From assembly GCF_019857185.1 (NCBI RefSeq), contig NZ_JAHWXP010000002.1, forward strand, positions 1 to 64,000: a DNA stretch of 64,000 nucleotides, written 5' to 3'. Shown one piece after another: positions 1,190-9,814 of the stretch (positions within the stretch are counted from its first letter, which is position 1; the number at the start of each line of letters is the position of its first letter). The stretch is from Alteriqipengyuania abyssalis. Its GTDB lineage: Bacteria > Pseudomonadota > Alphaproteobacteria > Sphingomonadales > Sphingomonadaceae. The position numbers were made by a program, and so were the translations under genes. A model generated the notes under the pieces. It did no database searches. It saw only the letters and a program-made list of their open reading frames with translations, and was not told the origin of the DNA.

Positions 1190-1764
1190 GCGGCGGCCTC
1201 GTATTCTGCGATCTGCGCGTCGTGCGCCAGGATGTGGCCCAGCGGATCGACCCCGTCGAGCAGGCAACGGCGCGCGAAAGGTTCGACCGCGAAGCGGGCT
1301 TCGATGCCGTCTTCGGTGGTCAGGGTGCACTCTTCCAGGTCGATGGCGATGGCAACGCCCGGTCGTTCGAGCAGGGCCGCGTGGGTTTCAGCGTCGACCT
1401 CGACCGGCAGCAGCCCGTTCTTGAGCGAGTTGCTCTTGAAGATGTCGGCGATGTCCGAGCTGACCACCGCGCGAAAGCCGTAGTCGAGCAGCGCCCACGG
1501 CGCGTGTTCGCGTGAGGAGCCGCAGCCGAAGTTCGGCCCCGCGACCAGTACCTGTCGATCGCCTGCGCCTGCGACCGGGAACGGCGAAGCGTTCTTGGGC
1601 TGATCGTCGGCGGTGTACCGCCAGTCGTAGAACGCATTCGCCCCCAGCCCCTCACGCGTGGTGGTGGTGAGGAAGCGCGCGGGGATGATCTGGTCGGTGT
1701 CGATATTGCTCTGGCGCACCACCAGCGTGCGCGCCTCCAGCCGCTTGAACGGATCAGGCTGCAT
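1186..1764 (-). CDS. leuD: 3-isopropylmalate dehydratase, small subunit
   Basis: LeuD pairs with LeuC to isomerise 2-isopropylmalate to 3-isopropylmalate in leucine synthesis. The product is 192 residues, usual for a bacterial LeuD. It shows [15 protein letters not shown] near the N terminus and the substrate-loop motif [13 protein letters not shown] in the middle (swivel domain of the aconitase superfamily). The start ATG overlaps the 3' end of leuC by 11 nt and the stop overlaps the leuB start by 4 nt, so translation is probably coupled through all three genes. Confidence 0.95.
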
Positions 1765-3178
1765 CGCGCGCCTCCGTGCTCATATATTGCGATGGGTCGG
1801 CGATATGGCCCGCGATGGCGCAGGCGGCCGCGGTTGCAGGCCCGGCGAGGACGGTGCGCACGCCCTTGCCCTGCCGACCGACGAAGTTGCGGTTGGAGGT
1901 CGAGACGACCAGCTCCCCCGGCGCGCCCTGGTCGCCGTTCATCGCGATGCACATCGAGCAGCCGGGCAGGCGCCACTCGGCCCCTGCTTGCGTGAACACG
2001 GCGTCGAGCCCCTCGGCTTCGGCCTGCTGGCGGATCGCTTCGGAGCCGGGCACGATCAGCGCGGTGACACCGTCTGCCACTGTGCGCCCGCGCATGACCT
2101 CAGCGGCTTCGCGCAGGTCGGACAGGCGCGAATTGGTGCAGCTGCCGATGAACACGCGGTCGACCTTCGCCTCGGCAAAGGGCCGGTCGGCGGCGAAGCG
2201 CATGTATTCCGCGGCTTCGCGCTCGGAATCGTTGGCGGGAGCAGGCGCGTTACCGGTAACGGGCGCGGCGGCATCGGGGGAGACGCCGTAGGTGATCATC
2301 GGGCGGATCGCGGCGGCGTCGACCGTGACTTCGGTGTCGAAGCTAGCCTCGGGATCGGAGGGCAGCTCGCGCCAGCGGGCGACTGCGGCATCCCAATCCT
2401 CGCCCTGAGGAGCGCGCTCGCGCCCTTCGAGATAGGCGAAGGTGGTTTCGTCCGGCGCGATCATGCCGACGCGCGCGCCAGCTTCGATCGCCATGTTGCA
2501 CAGGGTCATGCGGCCTTCCATCGACAGCGCCTCGACCGCTTCGCCGGCGAATTCGACCGCGTAGCCCTGCCCGCCGTCGGCACCGATCTGCGCAATCATG
2601 GCGAGCGCCATGTCCTTCGCGCCAACGCCGGGCGACAGTGCGCCTTCAAAGGTGATGCGCATCGACTTGGGCTTGCGCTGGAGCACGCATTGCGTGGCGA
2701 GCACGTGGCCGACCTCGGTCGTGCCGATCCCGAAGGCGAGCGCGCCGAAGGCTCCATGCGTCGAGGTGTGGCTGTCACCGCACACGATCGTCTTGCCGGG
2801 CTGGGTCAGGCCCATTTCCGGGCCGATCACGTGGACGATCCCGCGCCGCGCATCGTCGAGCCCGAGCAGGTCGATGCCGTACTTGGCGCAATTCGCCTCA
2901 AGCTGGTGAACCTGTTTCTCCGCCGCCTCGGTCGCGTAGGGCAGCCGCCCGTCCGCGCCCGCAGGCAGGGTCGGCGTCGAGTGGTCGAGCGTCGCCTGCG
3001 TCAGGTCGGGGCGGCGGACGGACAGCCCGCGTTCCTCCAGCACCGCAAAGGCCTGCGGCGAGGTGACTTCGTGCACCAGGTGCAGGTCGATGAAGAGGAT
3101 CGCGGGCGCATCCTCGCTTTCGGGGACGACGACATGTGTGTCCCACAGCTTGTCGAACAGTGATCGGGGGGCAGACAT
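1754..3178 (-). CDS. leuC: 3-isopropylmalate dehydratase, large subunit
   Basis: This is the Fe-S subunit of isopropylmalate isomerase, a homologue of aconitase. The 474-residue product starts [17 protein letters not shown]. It carries [14 protein letters not shown] and the three [4Fe-4S] cysteines in [11 protein letters not shown] and [12 protein letters not shown]. The ATG at 3178 gives the standard N terminus. It follows leuA by 11 nt and overlaps leuD by 11 nt. An open frame continues upstream to 3595 but only as an out-of-frame shadow inside leuA. Confidence 0.95.
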
Positions 3179-3189
3179 TGCGGATACCC

Positions 3190-4755
3190 TCACGCCGCGT
3201 CGGCGAAATTCGCGGCGTGCGACAGCCGCTCGTGATTGTTGAACGCCGCCAGCAGGGCTTCGGCGGCGGCGATGACCACGTCGGTGTGCTGGCTGCGGCC
3301 CGAGATCGCCACGCCATCGACCAGCAGGCCGACCTCGATCTCCATCTCGCGGCTGAGCTGGTGCGCATCGACGCTTTCCAGCGTGCCGTGCTTCACCTCG
3401 GCGGCAACGCAGAAGGCATCGGTCAGCGCCTCGAACGGACCGGTGCCGTGGCCGATCGTGGTCAGCCGCCCGCGCGTGCGGTGGTCGAGCGTGACCTTGG
3501 CGGTGGGCCGGTCGTTGGCCTTGGTTCCGGTGCGCATCTCGACCCGGACCAGCTCCCACGCGTGGCCGCGACCGTCTTCGGCGAGCAGATCGCACAGGTC
3601 GTTGTCGGTCACTTCGCGCCTGGTATCGGCCAGCCGCTTGAAATCGGCGTAGAGCTTTTCGAACCGGTTATCGCCCAGTTCGCCCTGGCCCAGCGCCTCC
3701 AGCCGCGCGCGCAGCGCATGCTTGCCAGAGTGCTTGCCCAGCACCAGCGCGTTGGAGGGCAGGCCGATGTCTTCCGGGCTCATGATCTCGTAGGTCCGCC
3801 GGTCGGCCAGCACGCCGTGCTGGTGGATGCCCGCCTCGTGGGCGAAGGCGTTGCGCCCGACGATCGCCTTGTTGCGCGGCGGAGCATTGCCGGTGACCTC
3901 GCCCAGCAGGCGGCTGACCGCGAAGATCTCGCGCGTCTCGACCCCGCTGGTCGCCCGGTAGTGATCGGGCCGCGTCTTGAGCGCCATCACTACTTCTTCC
4001 AGCGCGCAGTTGCCCGCTCGCTCGCCGATCCCGTTGATCGTGCATTCGACCTGCCCCGCACCGCCGCGCACTGCGGCCAGGCTGTTGGCCACCGCCATGC
4101 CCAGGTCGTTGTGGTTGTGGGTCGAGAACACGACATGATCGGGCCGCGCGACATTGGCGGTCAGATCCGCGAACAGCGCGTAAATCTCTTCCGGCGAGGT
4201 ATAGCCGACCGTGTCGGGCACGTTGAGCACGTCGGCCCCTGCGGCGGCGGCGCATTCGAGCGCTTCCTTCAGGAACGCGGGATCGGTGCGCAGCGCGTCT
4301 TCGGCGGAGAACTCGATCTCGGTGAAGCGGCCCTTGGCCATCCTGATCGCACGCTCGATCGTGGCGAGCGCTTCGGGCTTTTCCATCCGGTGCTTGGCCG
4401 CCAGATGCAGGTCGCTGGTGCCGAAGAACAGGTGCAGGCGGCTGCGCTTGGCCGGGCCCAGCGCCCGTTCGGCGGCGACGATGTCACCTTCCATCGCGCG
4501 CGAGAGCGAGCACAGCATCGGCGCATCGGGCAGATAGCCGATCTCGCTGGCGATCGCGTGGATCGCCTCGGCATCGCCGGGCGAGGCGGCGGCAAAGCCG
4601 ACCTCCATCACATCCACCTTCAGCTTGCGCAGCGCATGCGCCAGCTTCAGCTTCTGCGCGGTGTTCATCGAGAAGCCGGGCGCCTGTTCCCCATCGCGCA
4701 GCGACGTATCGAAAATTGCGATCTGGCGCGGCTGCGCCTCATCCGTGTGCGACAT
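3190..4755 (-). CDS. leuA: 2-isopropylmalate synthase
   Basis: LeuA condenses acetyl-CoA with 2-oxoisovalerate, the committed step to leucine. At 521 residues it is full length: an N-terminal TIM-barrel beginning [19 protein letters not shown], the metal ligands HNH in [11 protein letters not shown], a middle linker, and a C-terminal regulatory LeuA domain (from about residue 390) that usually confers leucine feedback inhibition. The start overlaps the end of the upstream ACT-domain gene by 17 nt. It is the first leu gene after the ilv genes, in one continuous minus-strand unit. Confidence 0.95.
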
Positions 4756-5032
4756 GGACGACCTCCGCTACGCGCGTGTCATTGCTCAGGTGGATGGCGT
4801 TCTCGACCGCGTAAACCCGGTCCAGCTGGCGCAGCAGCGTGTCGATCCTGCGCGAGGCGTCCATCGGCGCGAGCGCGAGGGTCATCACCGCGCGGTCCCC
4901 GTCGCTGCCCATCTGCATGGAGCGGACGGAGAAGCCGCGCGCCTCGATCACGCCGAGCGTCCGGCGAAGCGCGCCTTCCTCGCACGCGAATTCGATGCGG
5001 ATATGCTCAAGGCTCGGGGTGTTACGCGTCAT
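4739..5032 (-). CDS. ilvM: Acetolactate synthase small regulatory subunit, short IlvM-like ACT protein
   Basis: This 97-residue protein consists of little more than one ACT domain. The core LRRTLGVIEARGFSVRSMQM resembles the enterobacterial IlvM pattern of leucine-rich helix followed by RGF.V.SM. It sits directly between the catalytic subunit gene (11-nt overlap at its start) and leuA (17-nt overlap at its end), where a regulatory subunit is expected. The usual alphaproteobacterial IlvH is about 170 residues with a second domain, which is absent here. The function as small subunit of acetolactate synthase is inferred from the domain and position. Feedback properties cannot be read from the sequence. 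Confidence 0.8.
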   Translation of the reverse strand: MTRNTPSLEHIRIEFACEEGALRRTLGVIEARGFSVRSMQMGSDGDRAVMTLALAPMDASRRIDTLLRQLDRVYAVENAIHLSNDTRVAEVVHVAHG

Positions 5033-6731
5033 GGCGCTTCTCCATCATTTCTGCATTCGATTTGCCCGGCGGCACCAGCGGCCAGACGTTTTCTTCCGGG
5101 TCGATCCGGACATGGGCGAGGATCGGGCCGCGTGCGTTGATCAGGCGGTCGATCGCCCCGTCCACTTCCTCGCGACGCTCGATCCCGAAGGCTTCGATGC
5201 CGAAGGCGTTGGCGACTTCGACGAAGTCGGGATTGTCGGACAGGTCGACCTCGGAATAATTCCCGTCGAAGAACAGCTCCTGCCACTGGCGCACAAGGCC
5301 CAGCATCGCATTGTCGAGCAGCAGGATCTTCACCGGGATCTGGTACCGGCGCAAAGTCGCCAGTTCCTGGATGTTCATCTGGAAGCCCCCGTCTCCGCAC
5401 ACCGCGAAGACGTGGGCGTCGGGCTCGGCCAGCTTGGCGCCGATCGCTGCGGGCAGGCCGAAGCCCATCGCTCCCAGTCCGCCGCTGGTCAGATGCGCCT
5501 GCGGGCGCGAGAAGCGGCAGTGCTGGGCGACCCACATCTGGTGCTGGCCGACATCGCAGGCGACCACGAAATCGTCGCCGACCCGCTCCGACAGGGTCTT
5601 GAGCATCGCGGGCGCATAGACCCCGTTGCCCGGCGCATCATAGCGCGGAGCATGCTTCTCGCGGGTCTCGGCGGTGGAGCGGGTCCACGCGTCGATCTCG
5701 CCCTTCTCGAAGTCGATCGTGGCGAGGCTCGATTTGAGATTGCCGCACACCGCCGCATGGGCGAAGCGCAGCTTGCCCAGCTCGGCGGCGTCGACATCGA
5801 TGTGGACGACCGAGGCATGCGGGGCGAATTCGGCCAGCTTGCCGGTCGCCCGGTCATCGAACCGCGCGCCCAGCACGATCAGCAGGTCGCATTCCTGCAC
5901 CGCCATGTTCGCAGGCCGGTGGCCGTGCATGCCCAGCATGCCCAGCATCGCCGGATGCTCGGGCGGCAGCACGCCCAGACCCTGCAGCGTGGCGACCGCA
6001 GGGATGCCGCTTTCCTCCACGATCCGGCGGACCATTTCGCTGGCATTGGCGCGCGCGACGCCGCCGCCCAGATAGAACAGCGGCTTCTTCGCGCGGGCGA
6101 TCAGGCGCTCCGCCTCGGCAATCGATTCGGATGTCGGCGCAGGCAGGATGTCGGCTTCGGGCCGCCGCAGCGCCCCGGGTTCGCACACCGCCTGCTGCAC
6201 GTCCTTGGGCAGGTCGACCAGCACCGGGCCGGGGCGCCCCCCTTCTGCAATGGCGAAGGCTTCCGCCATGGCCGAGGGGATATCCTCGGGCCGGCGGACG
6301 ATGATCGAATGCTTCACGATCGGCATGGTCATGCCGAAGATGTCGGTTTCCTGAAACGCGTCGGTGCCCATCAGCGTCTGCGGCACCTGCCCGGTGATCG
6401 CCACCATCGGGACCGAGTCCAGATAGGCATTGGCGATTCCCGTGATCAGGTTGGTCGCGCCAGGGCCGGAGGTCGCCAGGCACACGCCCGCGCGGCCCGT
6501 AATCCGGCCATAGGCATCCGCAGCGAAGGCGGCGGCCTGTTCGTGCCGGACCAGGATGTGCCGCGTGGTGCCCTGCGGCAGCGCGTCATACACCGGCATG
6601 ATCGCGCCGCCGGGATAGCCGAACACGCAATCGACGCCGAGCGCGGCCAGCGTATCGACTACCAGCTGCGCACCCGTGCGGGTGGCAGGCTGGCTTTGCG
6701 GACTGTGCAGGGGCTGGGTCATGGTGTTCAT
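5022..6731 (-). CDS. ilvG: Acetolactate synthase, large catalytic subunit
   Basis: A thiamine-diphosphate enzyme that makes 2-acetolactate or 2-aceto-2-hydroxybutyrate, the first shared step for Val, Leu and Ile. The product shows FGYPGGAIMPVYDAL, the catalytic-Glu region RHEQAAAFAADAYGR, TSGPGATNLITGIANAYLDS, and the ThDP/Mg motif GDGGFQMNIQELATL. It is about 569 residues, normal for IlvB/IlvG/IlvI. The exact start is uncertain: in-frame GTG at 6740 and ATGs at 6731 and 6722 precede the conserved region, none with a strong Shine-Dalgarno. The symbol ilvG is chosen only because the partner is IlvM-like. Confidence 0.92.
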   Translation of the reverse strand: MNTMTQPLHSPQSQPATRTGAQLVVDTLAALGVDCVFGYPGGAIMPVYDALPQGTTRHILVRHEQAAAFAADAYGRITGRAGVCLATSGPGATNLITGIANAYLDSVPMVAITGQVPQTLMGTDAFQETDIFGMTMPIVKHSIIVRRPEDIPSAMAEAFAIAEGGRPGPVLVDLPKDVQQAVCEPGALRRPEADILPAPTSESIAEAERLIARAKKPLFYLGGGVARANASEMVRRIVEESGIPAVATLQGLGVLPPEHPAMLGMLGMHGHRPANMAVQECDLLIVLGARFDDRATGKLAEFAPHASVVHIDVDAAELGKLRFAHAAVCGNLKSSLATIDFEKGEIDAWTRSTAETREKHAPRYDAPGNGVYAPAMLKTLSERVGDDFVVACDVGQHQMWVAQHCRFSRPQAHLTSGGLGAMGFGLPAAIGAKLAEPDAHVFAVCGDGGFQMNIQELATLRRYQIPVKILLLDNAMLGLVRQWQELFFDGNYSEVDLSDNPDFVEVANAFGIEAFGIERREEVDGAIDRLINARGPILAHVRIDPEENVWPLVPPGKSNAEMMEKRHDA

Positions 6732-6756
6732 GGCTTTCACTTGGGCAAAGGCGCGC

Positions 6757-7788
6757 TTACGCGGCCTTTTGCTCCTTCTTCTTCTCGTCGGACTGCAGCC
6801 ACGACATCAGGCCGCGCAATTCCTTGCCGGTGGCTTCGATCGGGTGAGACAGATCGGCCGCCTGCATCTCGTCGTACTTCTTCTTTCCGGCCTCGTTCTC
6901 CGCGATCCAGTTGCGCGCGAAGGTGCCGTCCTGAATGTCGGTCAGCACGTCCTTCATCCGCGCGCGCGTCTCGTCGTTGATGACCCGCGGGCCGGAGACC
7001 AGGTCACCGTAGATCGCGGTTTCGGAGACGAACTCGTGCATCTTCTCGAACCCGCCTTCGTACAGCAGGTCGACGATCAGCTTGAGCTCGTGGAGACACT
7101 CGTAATAGGCGATCTCGGGCTGGTAGCCGGCGTTGACCAGCGTCTCGAACCCGGCAGCGACCAGCTCGGTCGCGCCGCCGCACAGCACCGCCTGTTCACC
7201 GAACAGATCGGTCTCGGTTTCCTCGCGGAAGCTGGTCTCGATCGCACCGGCAGTGGTCCCGCCGATCAGGCTGGCATAGGCCAGCGCCCGCTCGCGCGCT
7301 TCGCCGGTCGCATCCTGGCGCACCGCGAACAGGCAGGGCACGCCGGCGCCCCGCTCGTATTCGCGGCGCACCAGGTCTCCCGGTCCCTTGGGGGCGACCA
7401 GGATCACGTCGATTCCGGCGGCAGGCTGGATGCGTTCGTACAGCACGGTGAAACCGTGAGCGACCAGCACTGCGTCGCCCGGCTCCAGATTGGGCGCGAT
7501 TTCGGAGGCGAAGATCGTCTCGTGGCTCATGTCCGGGGTCAGCAGCGCGACCAGCGAGGCGGCCTTGGCCGCTTCGGCAACCGGCATCACGGTCAGGCCG
7601 TCGGCGCGCGCTTTCGCGGCGGTGGGCGAGCCATCGCGCAGGCCGACGATGACTTCGCAGCCGCTGTCCTTCAGGTTCATCGCGTGGGCGCGACCCTGGC
7701 TGCCATAGCCGATGATGGCGACGGGCTTGCCGCGCACCAGTTCGGGATTGGCATCTTCGTCGGTGTAGACCTTGATCGTCTTGGGCAT
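6757..7788 (-). CDS. ilvC: Ketol-acid reductoisomerase (NADP+), class I
   Basis: IlvC isomerises and reduces acetolactate to dihydroxyisovalerate using NADPH and Mg2+. The 343-residue product is class I by length. It has the Rossmann motif [20 protein letters not shown] near residue 24 and the C-terminal metal-site helix region [14 protein letters not shown]. The ATG at 7788 has a good ribosome-binding site (AAGGA, 9 nt upstream). It lies 12 nt after ilvD and 25 nt before the ATG chosen for the large acetolactate synthase subunit, within the same operon. Confidence 0.96.
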
Positions 7789-7800
7789 GGTATCAGTCCT

Positions 7801-9477
7801 TCACTCGGTAACAGGTGGAATGGTGGTTGCGCCGTAGGCGGCGGACGAGACGAGACGGGCGTATTTGTCGAACACCCCGCCCATGGAGTTTGGCGGTCTG
7901 GGAGTGTGCGCCGCGCGGCGGGCATCCCAGTCGATATCGGCGTCGATTCGGCGGGTTTCCGCGTCGATGCGGATGATGTCGCCTTCCTCGACCAGCGCGA
8001 TCGGGCCGCCCTTGGCCGCTTCGGGAGAGCAGTGGCCGATCACGAAACCGTGGCTCGCGCCGGAAAAGCGCCCGTCGGTAATCAGCGCGACCTTGCCGGC
8101 CAGACCCTGCCCGGCGAGCGCGGCGGTCACCGCCAGCATCTCGCGCATGCCGGGCCCGCCGGAAGGGCCTTCGTAGCGGATGATGACCACATCGCCCGCC
8201 TGGATCTGGTTGGCGTTGACGGCTGCAAAGCAGGCTTCCTCGCCCTCGAACACCTTGGCCGGGCCTTCGAACGAGGCTGCGCCGTAGCCGGCAGTCTTCA
8301 GCACCGCGCCTTCGGGGGCGATGTCGCCGTAGAGGATGCTGAGGCCACCGGTCGCCTTGACCGGGTCGGCAGGCGATTTGACCACCTGCTGCCCCGGCGT
8401 CTCTTCGGCGCGGGCCAGTTCGACAAACAGGCTGTCGCCCGTCACCGTGGGAGTGTCTTCCAGCATCCCGGCGTCCGCCAGCCGTTTCCCGAACAGCGGA
8501 ACGCCGCCCGCCGCGTAGAGATCGCGCGCCAGGAAGCGCCCGCCCGGCTTCAGGTCGGTGATGACCGGCACGCTGCGCGACAATTCGTCGAAGGTTTCGA
8601 TCGGGAAGGCAAAGCCCGCCTCCGCCGCGATCGCGGGCAGGTGGAGCACGGCATTGGTCGAGCCGCCGCTCGCGACGACCGCGGTCGCCGCGTTGCGGAT
8701 CGATGCGGGGGTCAGGAAGGTGCGTGCCGAAGTGCCTTCCTTGGCCAGCTTGGCCGCCAGCCGCCCGCAGCGCGCCGCCTCGACCCGCTTGGCAGAGTCG
8801 GTCGCGGGCGGATCGCCCGAACCCATCGGACTGATACCCATCATCGCCAGCGCCATCGCCATGGTGTTGGCGGTGAACTGCCCGCCGCACGCACCCGCGC
8901 CGGGGCATGCCGCACGCTCGACCTTGTCGAGCTCGGCATCGCTCATGTCGCCCTTGGCGTGCGCACCGACCGCCTCGAACACGTCCTGGATCGACAGGTC
9001 GCGACCATCCAGACGGCCGGGCATGATCGTCCCGCCGTAGAAGACCAGCCCCGGAATATCGAGCCGGGCCAGCGCCATCGCGGCGGCGGGGATGGTCTTG
9101 TCGCAGCCGACCAGAATGACCGCCGCGTCCAGAGAGTGCCCCTTCACCGCCAGTTCGATCGAGTCGGCGATGATCTCGCGGCTGATCAGCGAGGCACGCA
9201 TGCCCTCGCCGCCCATCGTGATCCCGTCCGAGACCACGATGGTGTTGAAGTCCACCGGCGTGGCACCGTTTTCGCGCAGGCCCTGCCGGATCGGCTCGGC
9301 CAGATCGGCCAGGTGCATGTTGCATGGCGTCACCGTCGACCAGGTGTTGACGACCGCGACCATGGGCTGCGCCATCTGTTCGTCGGTGAAGCCCGCACCG
9401 CGCAGCATGGCGCGTGCAGGTGCCTTGGCCGCACCCTTGGTGATCGCGTCGGAGCGTTTGGAAGTTATCTCAGTCAT
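7801..9477 (-). CDS. ilvD: Dihydroxy-acid dehydratase
   Basis: IlvD dehydrates dihydroxyisovalerate and dihydroxymethylvalerate to the 2-oxo acids of the valine and isoleucine branches. It uses an Fe-S cluster in the cytoplasm. The 558-residue product shows the three cysteine segments [34 protein letters not shown] and [18 protein letters not shown]. The ATG at 9477 ([20 protein letters not shown]) fits the family N terminus. The frame stays open upstream but that part is the attenuator region. It is the first structural gene of the operon, about 25 nt downstream of the attenuator U-tract. Confidence 0.95.
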
Positions 9478-9500
9478 CACGTTGATCCCTTGACGGACCC

Positions 9501-9538
9501 AATAAAAAACCCCGCTTTCCTGTTCGGAGAGCGGGGTT
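9501..9538 (-). terminator. Attenuator terminator of the ilv-leu operon
   Basis: On the minus strand a 9-bp perfect stem AACCCCGCT / AGCGGGGTT (9530-9538 with 9508-9516) is followed by a U-rich run (TTTTTATT). It lies between the leader peptide stop and ilvD. That position makes it an attenuator, not an end-of-operon terminator. An outer inverted repeat GACGGACC / GGTCCGTC (9492-9499 and 9544-9551) flanks it and could form an alternative structure. Confidence 0.88.
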
Positions 9539-9552
9539 CGAGAGGTCCGTCT

Positions 9553-9586
9553 GGCTAAGCCTAGCCGATGGGCACTCCCCCCCGCT
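9553..9586 (-). promoter_or_regulatory. Antiterminator segment and pause hairpin in the ilv leader
   Basis: The leader RNA contains AGCGGGG (plus-strand 9580-9586), which is complementary over 7 bases to CCCCGCT, the 5' arm of the downstream terminator. It overlaps leader codons 33-35, immediately after the Leu/Val/Ile run. A ribosome stalled in that run would therefore leave it free to pair and block the terminator. Right at the leader stop, GGCTA-GGCT-TAGCC (9553-9566) can form a small hairpin. The pairing is visible; the mechanism is inferred from classical attenuation. Confidence 0.7.
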
Positions 9587-9683
9587 GAATAAGAAGTACA
9601 AGGAAAATAACGAGGAGCAGCGCGAGACCCTGCGCAAACAGCACAGTCTCGTCGGCAGTACGGATGGCGGCCACGGCCTTCAT
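9561..9683 (-). CDS. ilv-leu operon leader peptide
   Basis: This 40-codon ORF starts at ATG 9683 with a GAGGAA ribosome-binding site about 7 nt upstream. It encodes a peptide with 17 Leu, Val or Ile residues out of 40. Residues 20-32 read [13 protein letters not shown], 11 of 13 branched-chain. It ends 22 nt before the attenuator hairpin. This is the arrangement of enterobacterial ilv leader peptides, where scarcity of charged Leu/Val/Ile tRNA stalls the ribosome. The product itself is probably not functional. It could be mistaken for a one-helix membrane peptide, but its position argues for a leader. Confidence 0.85.
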
Positions 9684-9730
9684 TCGTCGTTCCTCGCATG
9701 CGCAGCACGATTGCTGCGGTGGCGAGCGGT

Positions 9731-9759
9731 TTATAACATCAAAGCTTAATGGCAAGCAA
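9731..9759 (-). promoter_or_regulatory. Putative sigma-70 promoter of the ilv-leu operon
   Basis: Minus-strand TTGCTT (9754-9759), a 17-bp spacer and TTATAA (9731-9736) match housekeeping -35 and -10 elements. Transcription would start near 9724, about 40 nt before the leader peptide ATG. It is the only good promoter-like match in the proB-leader gap. Confidence 0.6.
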
Positions 9760-9784
9760 AAATGTTGCCGAACGGGGGGATTTT

Positions 9785-9814
9785 TCGGATCGTTTCGATC
9801 CGAGCGCCTTTTTT
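9785..9814 (+). terminator. Inverted repeat with U-tract on the plus strand
   Basis: A perfect 8-bp stem TCGGATCG-TTT-CGATCCGA (9785-9803) is followed on the plus strand by AGCGCC and six Ts. As a terminator it would act on plus-strand transcripts, yet the flanking genes (proB and the ilv leader) run on the minus strand. It could instead be an operator upstream of the ilv promoter, or stabilise the proB 3' end. Role unresolved. Confidence 0.4.

Follow-up and report, generated by a model that had tools for sequence, protein, structure and literature searches.

Leader-peptide attenuation is a well-known kind of switch, and a further instance is not new in kind, since attenuation of Caulobacter ilvBN is established and comparative surveys exist. 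The host group treated here is one of little-described marine bacteria. The account given in PMC4117421 of the Caulobacter crescentus ilvBN (ilvL) attenuator (Tarleton, Malakooti and Ely 1994) describes an alphaproteobacterial leader in which tandem branched-chain codons and then a Rho-independent terminator precede the ilv genes, and in which ribosome stalling leads to read-through. Compared by that description only, it controls ilvBN through Ile and Val codons, whereas the leader reported here carries Leu, Val and Ile codons and precedes one operon that unites ilvDCBM with leuACDB. The ilvGMEDA, ilvBN and leuABCD operons of E. coli and Salmonella likewise have a short, branched-chain-rich leader peptide and a terminator/antiterminator switch (PMC6123439), with the difference that our locus joins ilv and leu genes in a single operon. 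Leader-peptide attenuation of branched-chain operons is also described for Staphylococcus, Listeria and Corynebacterium (PMC5794164, PMC5864092, PMC11857589); according to these accounts, those systems belong to other phyla and the Staphylococcus and Listeria ones work with CodY. Vitreschak et al. 2004, as cited in PMC6123439, are credited with predicting branched-chain leader attenuators, similar in kind to ours, by comparison across Proteobacteria. In a literature search run largely without subscription journals, no publication dealing with this operon in Sphingomonadales came up.

Here we describe a leader that very probably acts as a ribosome-mediated transcription attenuator for a single branched-chain operon, a reading built from sequence comparison and folding. 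It lies in a 64-kb stretch of DNA (the window) from a 3.10-Mb genome that is Citromicrobium-like by its nearest named relatives. Family matches give the gene order ilvD-C-B(G)-M-leuA-C-D-B, with every gene on the minus strand and neighbours slightly overlapping or separated by short gaps: ilvD, dihydroxy-acid dehydratase and first gene of the operon (7801–9477; NF002068, 724.9 bits, and Pfam); ilvC, ketol-acid reductoisomerase (6757–7788), the only ilvC copy found in the genome; ilvB/ilvG, the large subunit of an AHAS II-type acetolactate synthase (5022–6740; NF006524, 858 bits, cut-off 738); an ilvM-like small subunit (4739–5032), whose best match, NF008362 (AHAS II), scores 33 bits, below its cut-off of 68; leuA, 2-isopropylmalate synthase (3190–4755); leuC, with an inferred start (1754–3178; TIGR00170); leuD (1186–1764; TIGR00171); and leuB (110–1189; TIGR00169). 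The ilvGMEDA operon carries AHAS II genes, and the acetolactate synthase of the window operon is of this same IlvG/IlvM type. The proB gene lies upstream of the leader on the same strand. A long plus-strand open reading frame opposite ilvD and ilvC (6676–9558) was taken for a mirror frame, the DNA being 66% G+C, and left aside.

Between proB and ilvD, on the minus strand, a predicted open reading frame (ORF) of 40 codons plus stop (9683–9561), kept in relatives, is preceded by a Shine–Dalgarno-like GAGGA (9691–9695) 7 nt before its ATG. Codons 20–32 (9588–9626) read CTC GCG CTG CTC CTC GTT ATT TTC CTT GTA CTT CTT ATT, so that 11 of 13 specify Leu, Val or Ile, amino acids whose pathway enzymes are encoded directly downstream. 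Over all six frames, the 64 kb contain 105,427 stretches of 13 codons free of stops, and this control run alone among them has at least 11 Leu/Ile/Val. A candidate promoter, recognized as a motif pair, lies upstream on the same strand (9730–9759): TTGCTT (9759–9754) and TATAAA (9735–9730), 18 nt apart. The pair and its spacing recur in all eight Citromicrobium-group leaders tested and are absent from the more distant leaders tested; a consensus promoter scan did not report the site. Two further hairpins were seen in this region. One (CGCAGCA/TGCTGCG, 9701–9718, minus strand) sits ahead of the Shine–Dalgarno element, probably where the leader RNA starts, is retained in most Citromicrobium-group leaders and is absent in G035. 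The other, terminator-like with a T tract, lies on the plus strand between proB and the leader promoter (9784–9804), with no obvious plus-strand gene.

Between the leader ORF and ilvD stands an intrinsic terminator (9504–9538, minus strand) of the form AACCCCGCT-C-TCC-gaaca-GGA-A-AGCGGGGTT plus T tract; its sequence, AACCCCGCTcTCCgaacaGGAaAGCGGGGTT followed by T6, folds at −21.2 kcal/mol. The 3′ arm AGCGGGG occupies 9516–9510 and T6 9509–9504, leaving 26 nt to the ilvD start at 9477. A terminator scan did not report the hairpin (9538–9508), probably because of the mismatch inside its stem. The 5′ arm CCCCGCT (9536–9530, minus strand; segment 3) has a second possible partner in AGCGGGG (9586–9580, minus strand; segment 2), which lies inside the ORF right behind the control codons and whose pairing reaches into GGGAG. 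As a whole, the 221-nt leader region folds better than 200 of 200 dinucleotide shuffles (z = −3.5). Most of what the first-pass annotation had read at this locus was thus recovered: the 40-codon ORF with its ribosome-binding site, the 11 of 13 Leu/Val/Ile codons, the complementarity of AGCGGGG to the terminator arm, the U-tract and the combined ilv–leu operon.

At 29 of 31 distinct loci (28 that we modelled, plus L092), ilvD of this type has the same anatomy in front of it, in Citromicrobium, Novosphingopyxis, Parvularculaceae, Euryhalocaulis, Brevundimonas and other lineages. Each of the 28 modelled loci combines a short ORF, in which 13 codons hold 8–13 Leu/Ile/Val, with a hairpin and T tract behind it; some start codons in relatives are uncertain, and the ORF lengths reported for them are upper limits. 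From family to family, the control run, segment 2 and the terminator follow one another in the same order and at roughly the same distances. When 387 genomes of the class, among them that of the window, were drawn later, a single further one had this IlvD above threshold; its locus, L092, has the leader DLLSLVVLVLIIIPSKGAEPEPAS and a hairpin and T tract, GCCCCGTTCC...GAGGAGCGGGGC-T5. Loss of the leader ORF and complementary segments in close relatives had been named as grounds for abandoning the attenuator reading, and instead both recur in the 28 loci and the additional one. At 20 control loci with other types of ilvD, the upstream regions hold at most 8 of 13 Leu/Ile/Val, a maximum that overlaps the weakest leaders (8 in L017, L040 and L046) and not the typical ones. 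Two loci of this ilvD type, which group together in the tree, are without the leader (L016/L076 and L050); at L076, ilvD does not head the operon, ilvC is divergent and the region read holds at most 6 of 13 Leu/Ile/Val. Complete or nearly complete gene order like that of the window follows the leader in G035, G032, G062, Novosphingopyxis, Marinicaulis, Euryhalocaulis, two Parvularcula and Brevundimonas, and also in members of another family of the same order, some single genes (ilvM, leuC/leuD, or ilvB in L079) being unmatched by tblastn.

Codon choice in the control runs departs strongly from that in the ilvD genes of the same loci and favours rare codons: GTA is enriched 18-fold, CTA 8-fold, CTT 4.4-fold and ATT 3.6-fold, and TTA, TTG and GTT are avoided. 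Together GTA, CTA, CTT and ATT make up 146 of 295 control codons against 26.2 expected, with a maximum of 44 in 20,000 simulations; without Citromicrobium the count is 98 of 201 against 23.7 expected. Codon bias in E. coli attenuator leaders has been explained by selective charging of isoacceptors (PMC1183508), and by analogy the same cause may underlie the bias here.

The complementarity of segments 2 and 3 exceeds that of shuffled sequences (mean −14.4 versus −10.0 kcal/mol), with a Fisher combined p of about 6e-10 over 20 non-Citromicrobium leaders that are not fully independent and whose relatedness is uncorrected; taken singly, L013, L014, L015 and L017 pair no significantly better than their shuffles. 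Marinicaulis, Parvularcula, Brevundimonas, Euryhalocaulis and G062 share a register of eight pairs, two of which are exchanged on both sides, G-C giving way to A-U: at pair 3 five rows have G-C and two have A-U, and pair 7 is G-C or A-U. The underlying alignment was put together manually from the paired segments, a procedure biased towards pairing. The covariation score was matched by 2 of 500 shuffles, and sliding the partner destroys the pairing. Covarying pairs among relatives, proposed earlier as a check, are therefore present across lineages but not within Citromicrobium, where the 2:3 core is 100% paired and invariant in the eight group sequences and gives no covariation.

These data bear on two competing explanations, both of which we regard as very improbable. 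The ORF might be a gene for a functional small hydrophobic (membrane) protein with its own terminator, ilvD being expressed from elsewhere; the peptide is indeed very hydrophobic, and its C-terminal RGGVPIG is kept within Citromicrobium. In other lineages, however, N-terminus, length and C-terminus differ, and what persists is the Leu/Val/Ile run and a GGAGC-type RNA segment. The codon bias of the run is seen at the nucleotide level, the RNA complementarity to the terminator covaries, the peptide matches no protein family, and the ORF occurs where this ilvD heads its operon and is missing at L076, where it does not. On the second explanation, to which we assign the same slight chance, the leader peptide would be incidental to a constitutive terminator that sets basal expression or ends the proB transcript. 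The position of proB upstream on the same strand and a hairpin intrinsically strong at −21 kcal/mol speak for this, but it leaves the Leu/Val/Ile run, its codon bias and segment 2 unexplained; run, segment 2 and terminator moreover keep their order, and roughly their distances, from family to family. Least probable of all is a ligand- or tRNA-sensing RNA (riboswitch or T-box) in place of a ribosome-sensing leader, for although the Bacillus ilv–leu operon is under T-box control (PMC6123439), the conserved element here is a translatable Leu/Val/Ile run and the leader matches no T-box or riboswitch model of Rfam at gathering thresholds or at E up to 10. Among Rfam leader families none scored above gathering (Trp_leader, 16 bits against a gathering threshold of 41), and searches at a permissive threshold gave weak, incoherent matches that we discarded; no Rfam family covers this leader.

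For the favoured attenuator, of which the comparisons above show the anatomy, its conservation and the complementary segments, we infer the kinetic outcome, the starvation response and the amino acid or acids sensed along the following lines. A ribosome would translate the 40-codon peptide while RNA polymerase transcribes the leader. With ample charged Leu-, Val- and Ile-tRNA, it would pass codons 20–32 and reach the stop, where it would cover or have displaced segment 2, so that segments 3 and 4 could form the terminator and transcription would end before ilvD. Were charged tRNA short, the ribosome would be expected to stall at codons 20–29 and leave AGCGGGG free to pair with CCCCGCU once transcribed, blocking the terminator and allowing expression of the operon.

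Folding with the ribosome at successive positions, its leading edge assumed to lie 16 nt from the P site, is consistent with this scheme: the modelled alternative antiterminator excludes the terminator and is exposed by a stalled ribosome. With polymerase at the end of segment 3 and the A site at codons 18–29, the mean pairing probability of segments 2 and 3 is 0.96–0.98 in the model; from codon 30 onward, segment 2 of the window leader is predicted to be partly or wholly occluded. Across the 28 leaders, pairing between the terminator 5′ arm and the leader persists with the ribosome in the run and drops near the run's end, and in nearly all of them the modelled switch point falls at or just past that end. 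L014, with segment 2 further downstream, stays paired without a drop within the positions modelled. At equilibrium the terminator wins whatever the ribosome position (P34 about 0.99), and the switch must therefore be kinetic. With no ribosome on the leader, the modelled antiterminator probability at the decision point is 0.81. The control run and segment 2 of the window leader can fold together (1:2), but in most leaders such folds do not beat their shuffles in energy, and this comparison across leaders brought out no conserved 1:2 protector hairpin. Taken together, the 0.81 value and the lack of a conserved protector do not support the textbook arrangement in which an untranslated leader is off by default. 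The earlier likening to enterobacterial ilv leaders needs the qualification that the geometry does not quite match the E. coli textbook case, because segment 2 lies wholly inside the ORF, before the stop, and the 1:2 protector is weak or absent.

The first-pass annotation also raised the possibility that an additional inverted repeat bracketing the terminator forms a third structure. The repeat is present on the minus strand: its 5′ arm, GACGGACC (9544–9551), contains a GGACCTC core, and its 3′ arm, GGTCCGTC (9492–9499), lies just upstream of the ilvD ribosome-binding site. Within Citromicrobium it is paired, nearly invariant and not covarying; outside that group it reaches significance in just three leaders, L043, L045 and L049, and most others, Parvularcula and Brevundimonas among them, lack it. 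We therefore rejected it as a conserved third state, its occurrence being lineage-specific and patchy. It also spans the T tract and could form only once polymerase has read through the terminator, too late to take part in the decision. Separately, a GGACCT(C/T)-like motif is found between stop codon and terminator in the window (9543–9551) and in the L012, L038, L039, L043, L045 and L049 leaders, and it is kept even where the downstream partner in the repeat is missing.

In the IlvD tree, a supported group nested in Parvularculaceae unites the window sequence with those of other Citromicrobium, G035 and Novosphingopyxis; Citromicrobium, Novosphingopyxis and Parvularculaceae share the leader as well. 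In G004, a genome of the same genus as that of the window, this IlvD is missing and the sole ilvC, located elsewhere, is a divergent one (53%). On the simplest reading, operon and leader were probably transferred together from a Parvularculales-like donor. As a side observation, the native-type ilvB of G004 (L091, ~8120–8250) sits behind a strong terminator-like hairpin, CCCGGC...GCCGGG plus T tract, with no Leu/Val/Ile-rich ORF, an arrangement that reads as a leader terminator lacking its leader peptide.

The attenuator would make one leader control the genome's only found ilvC and its surrounding operon, and the joint transfer would be a case of a regulatory RNA moving between bacterial orders along with the operon under its control. 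More tentatively, and with the odds in our judgement against it, operon and attenuator may constitute a self-contained, horizontally mobile unit in which a single leader senses three amino acids simultaneously, is tuned by synonymous codons under strong selection (GTA, CTA, CTT, ATT) and dispenses with a 1:2 protector. If so, with segment 2 in the coding region and no protector required, an untranslated leader would leave the operon on. These leaders may serve as a clean, conserved set for testing codon choice against attenuation sensitivity.
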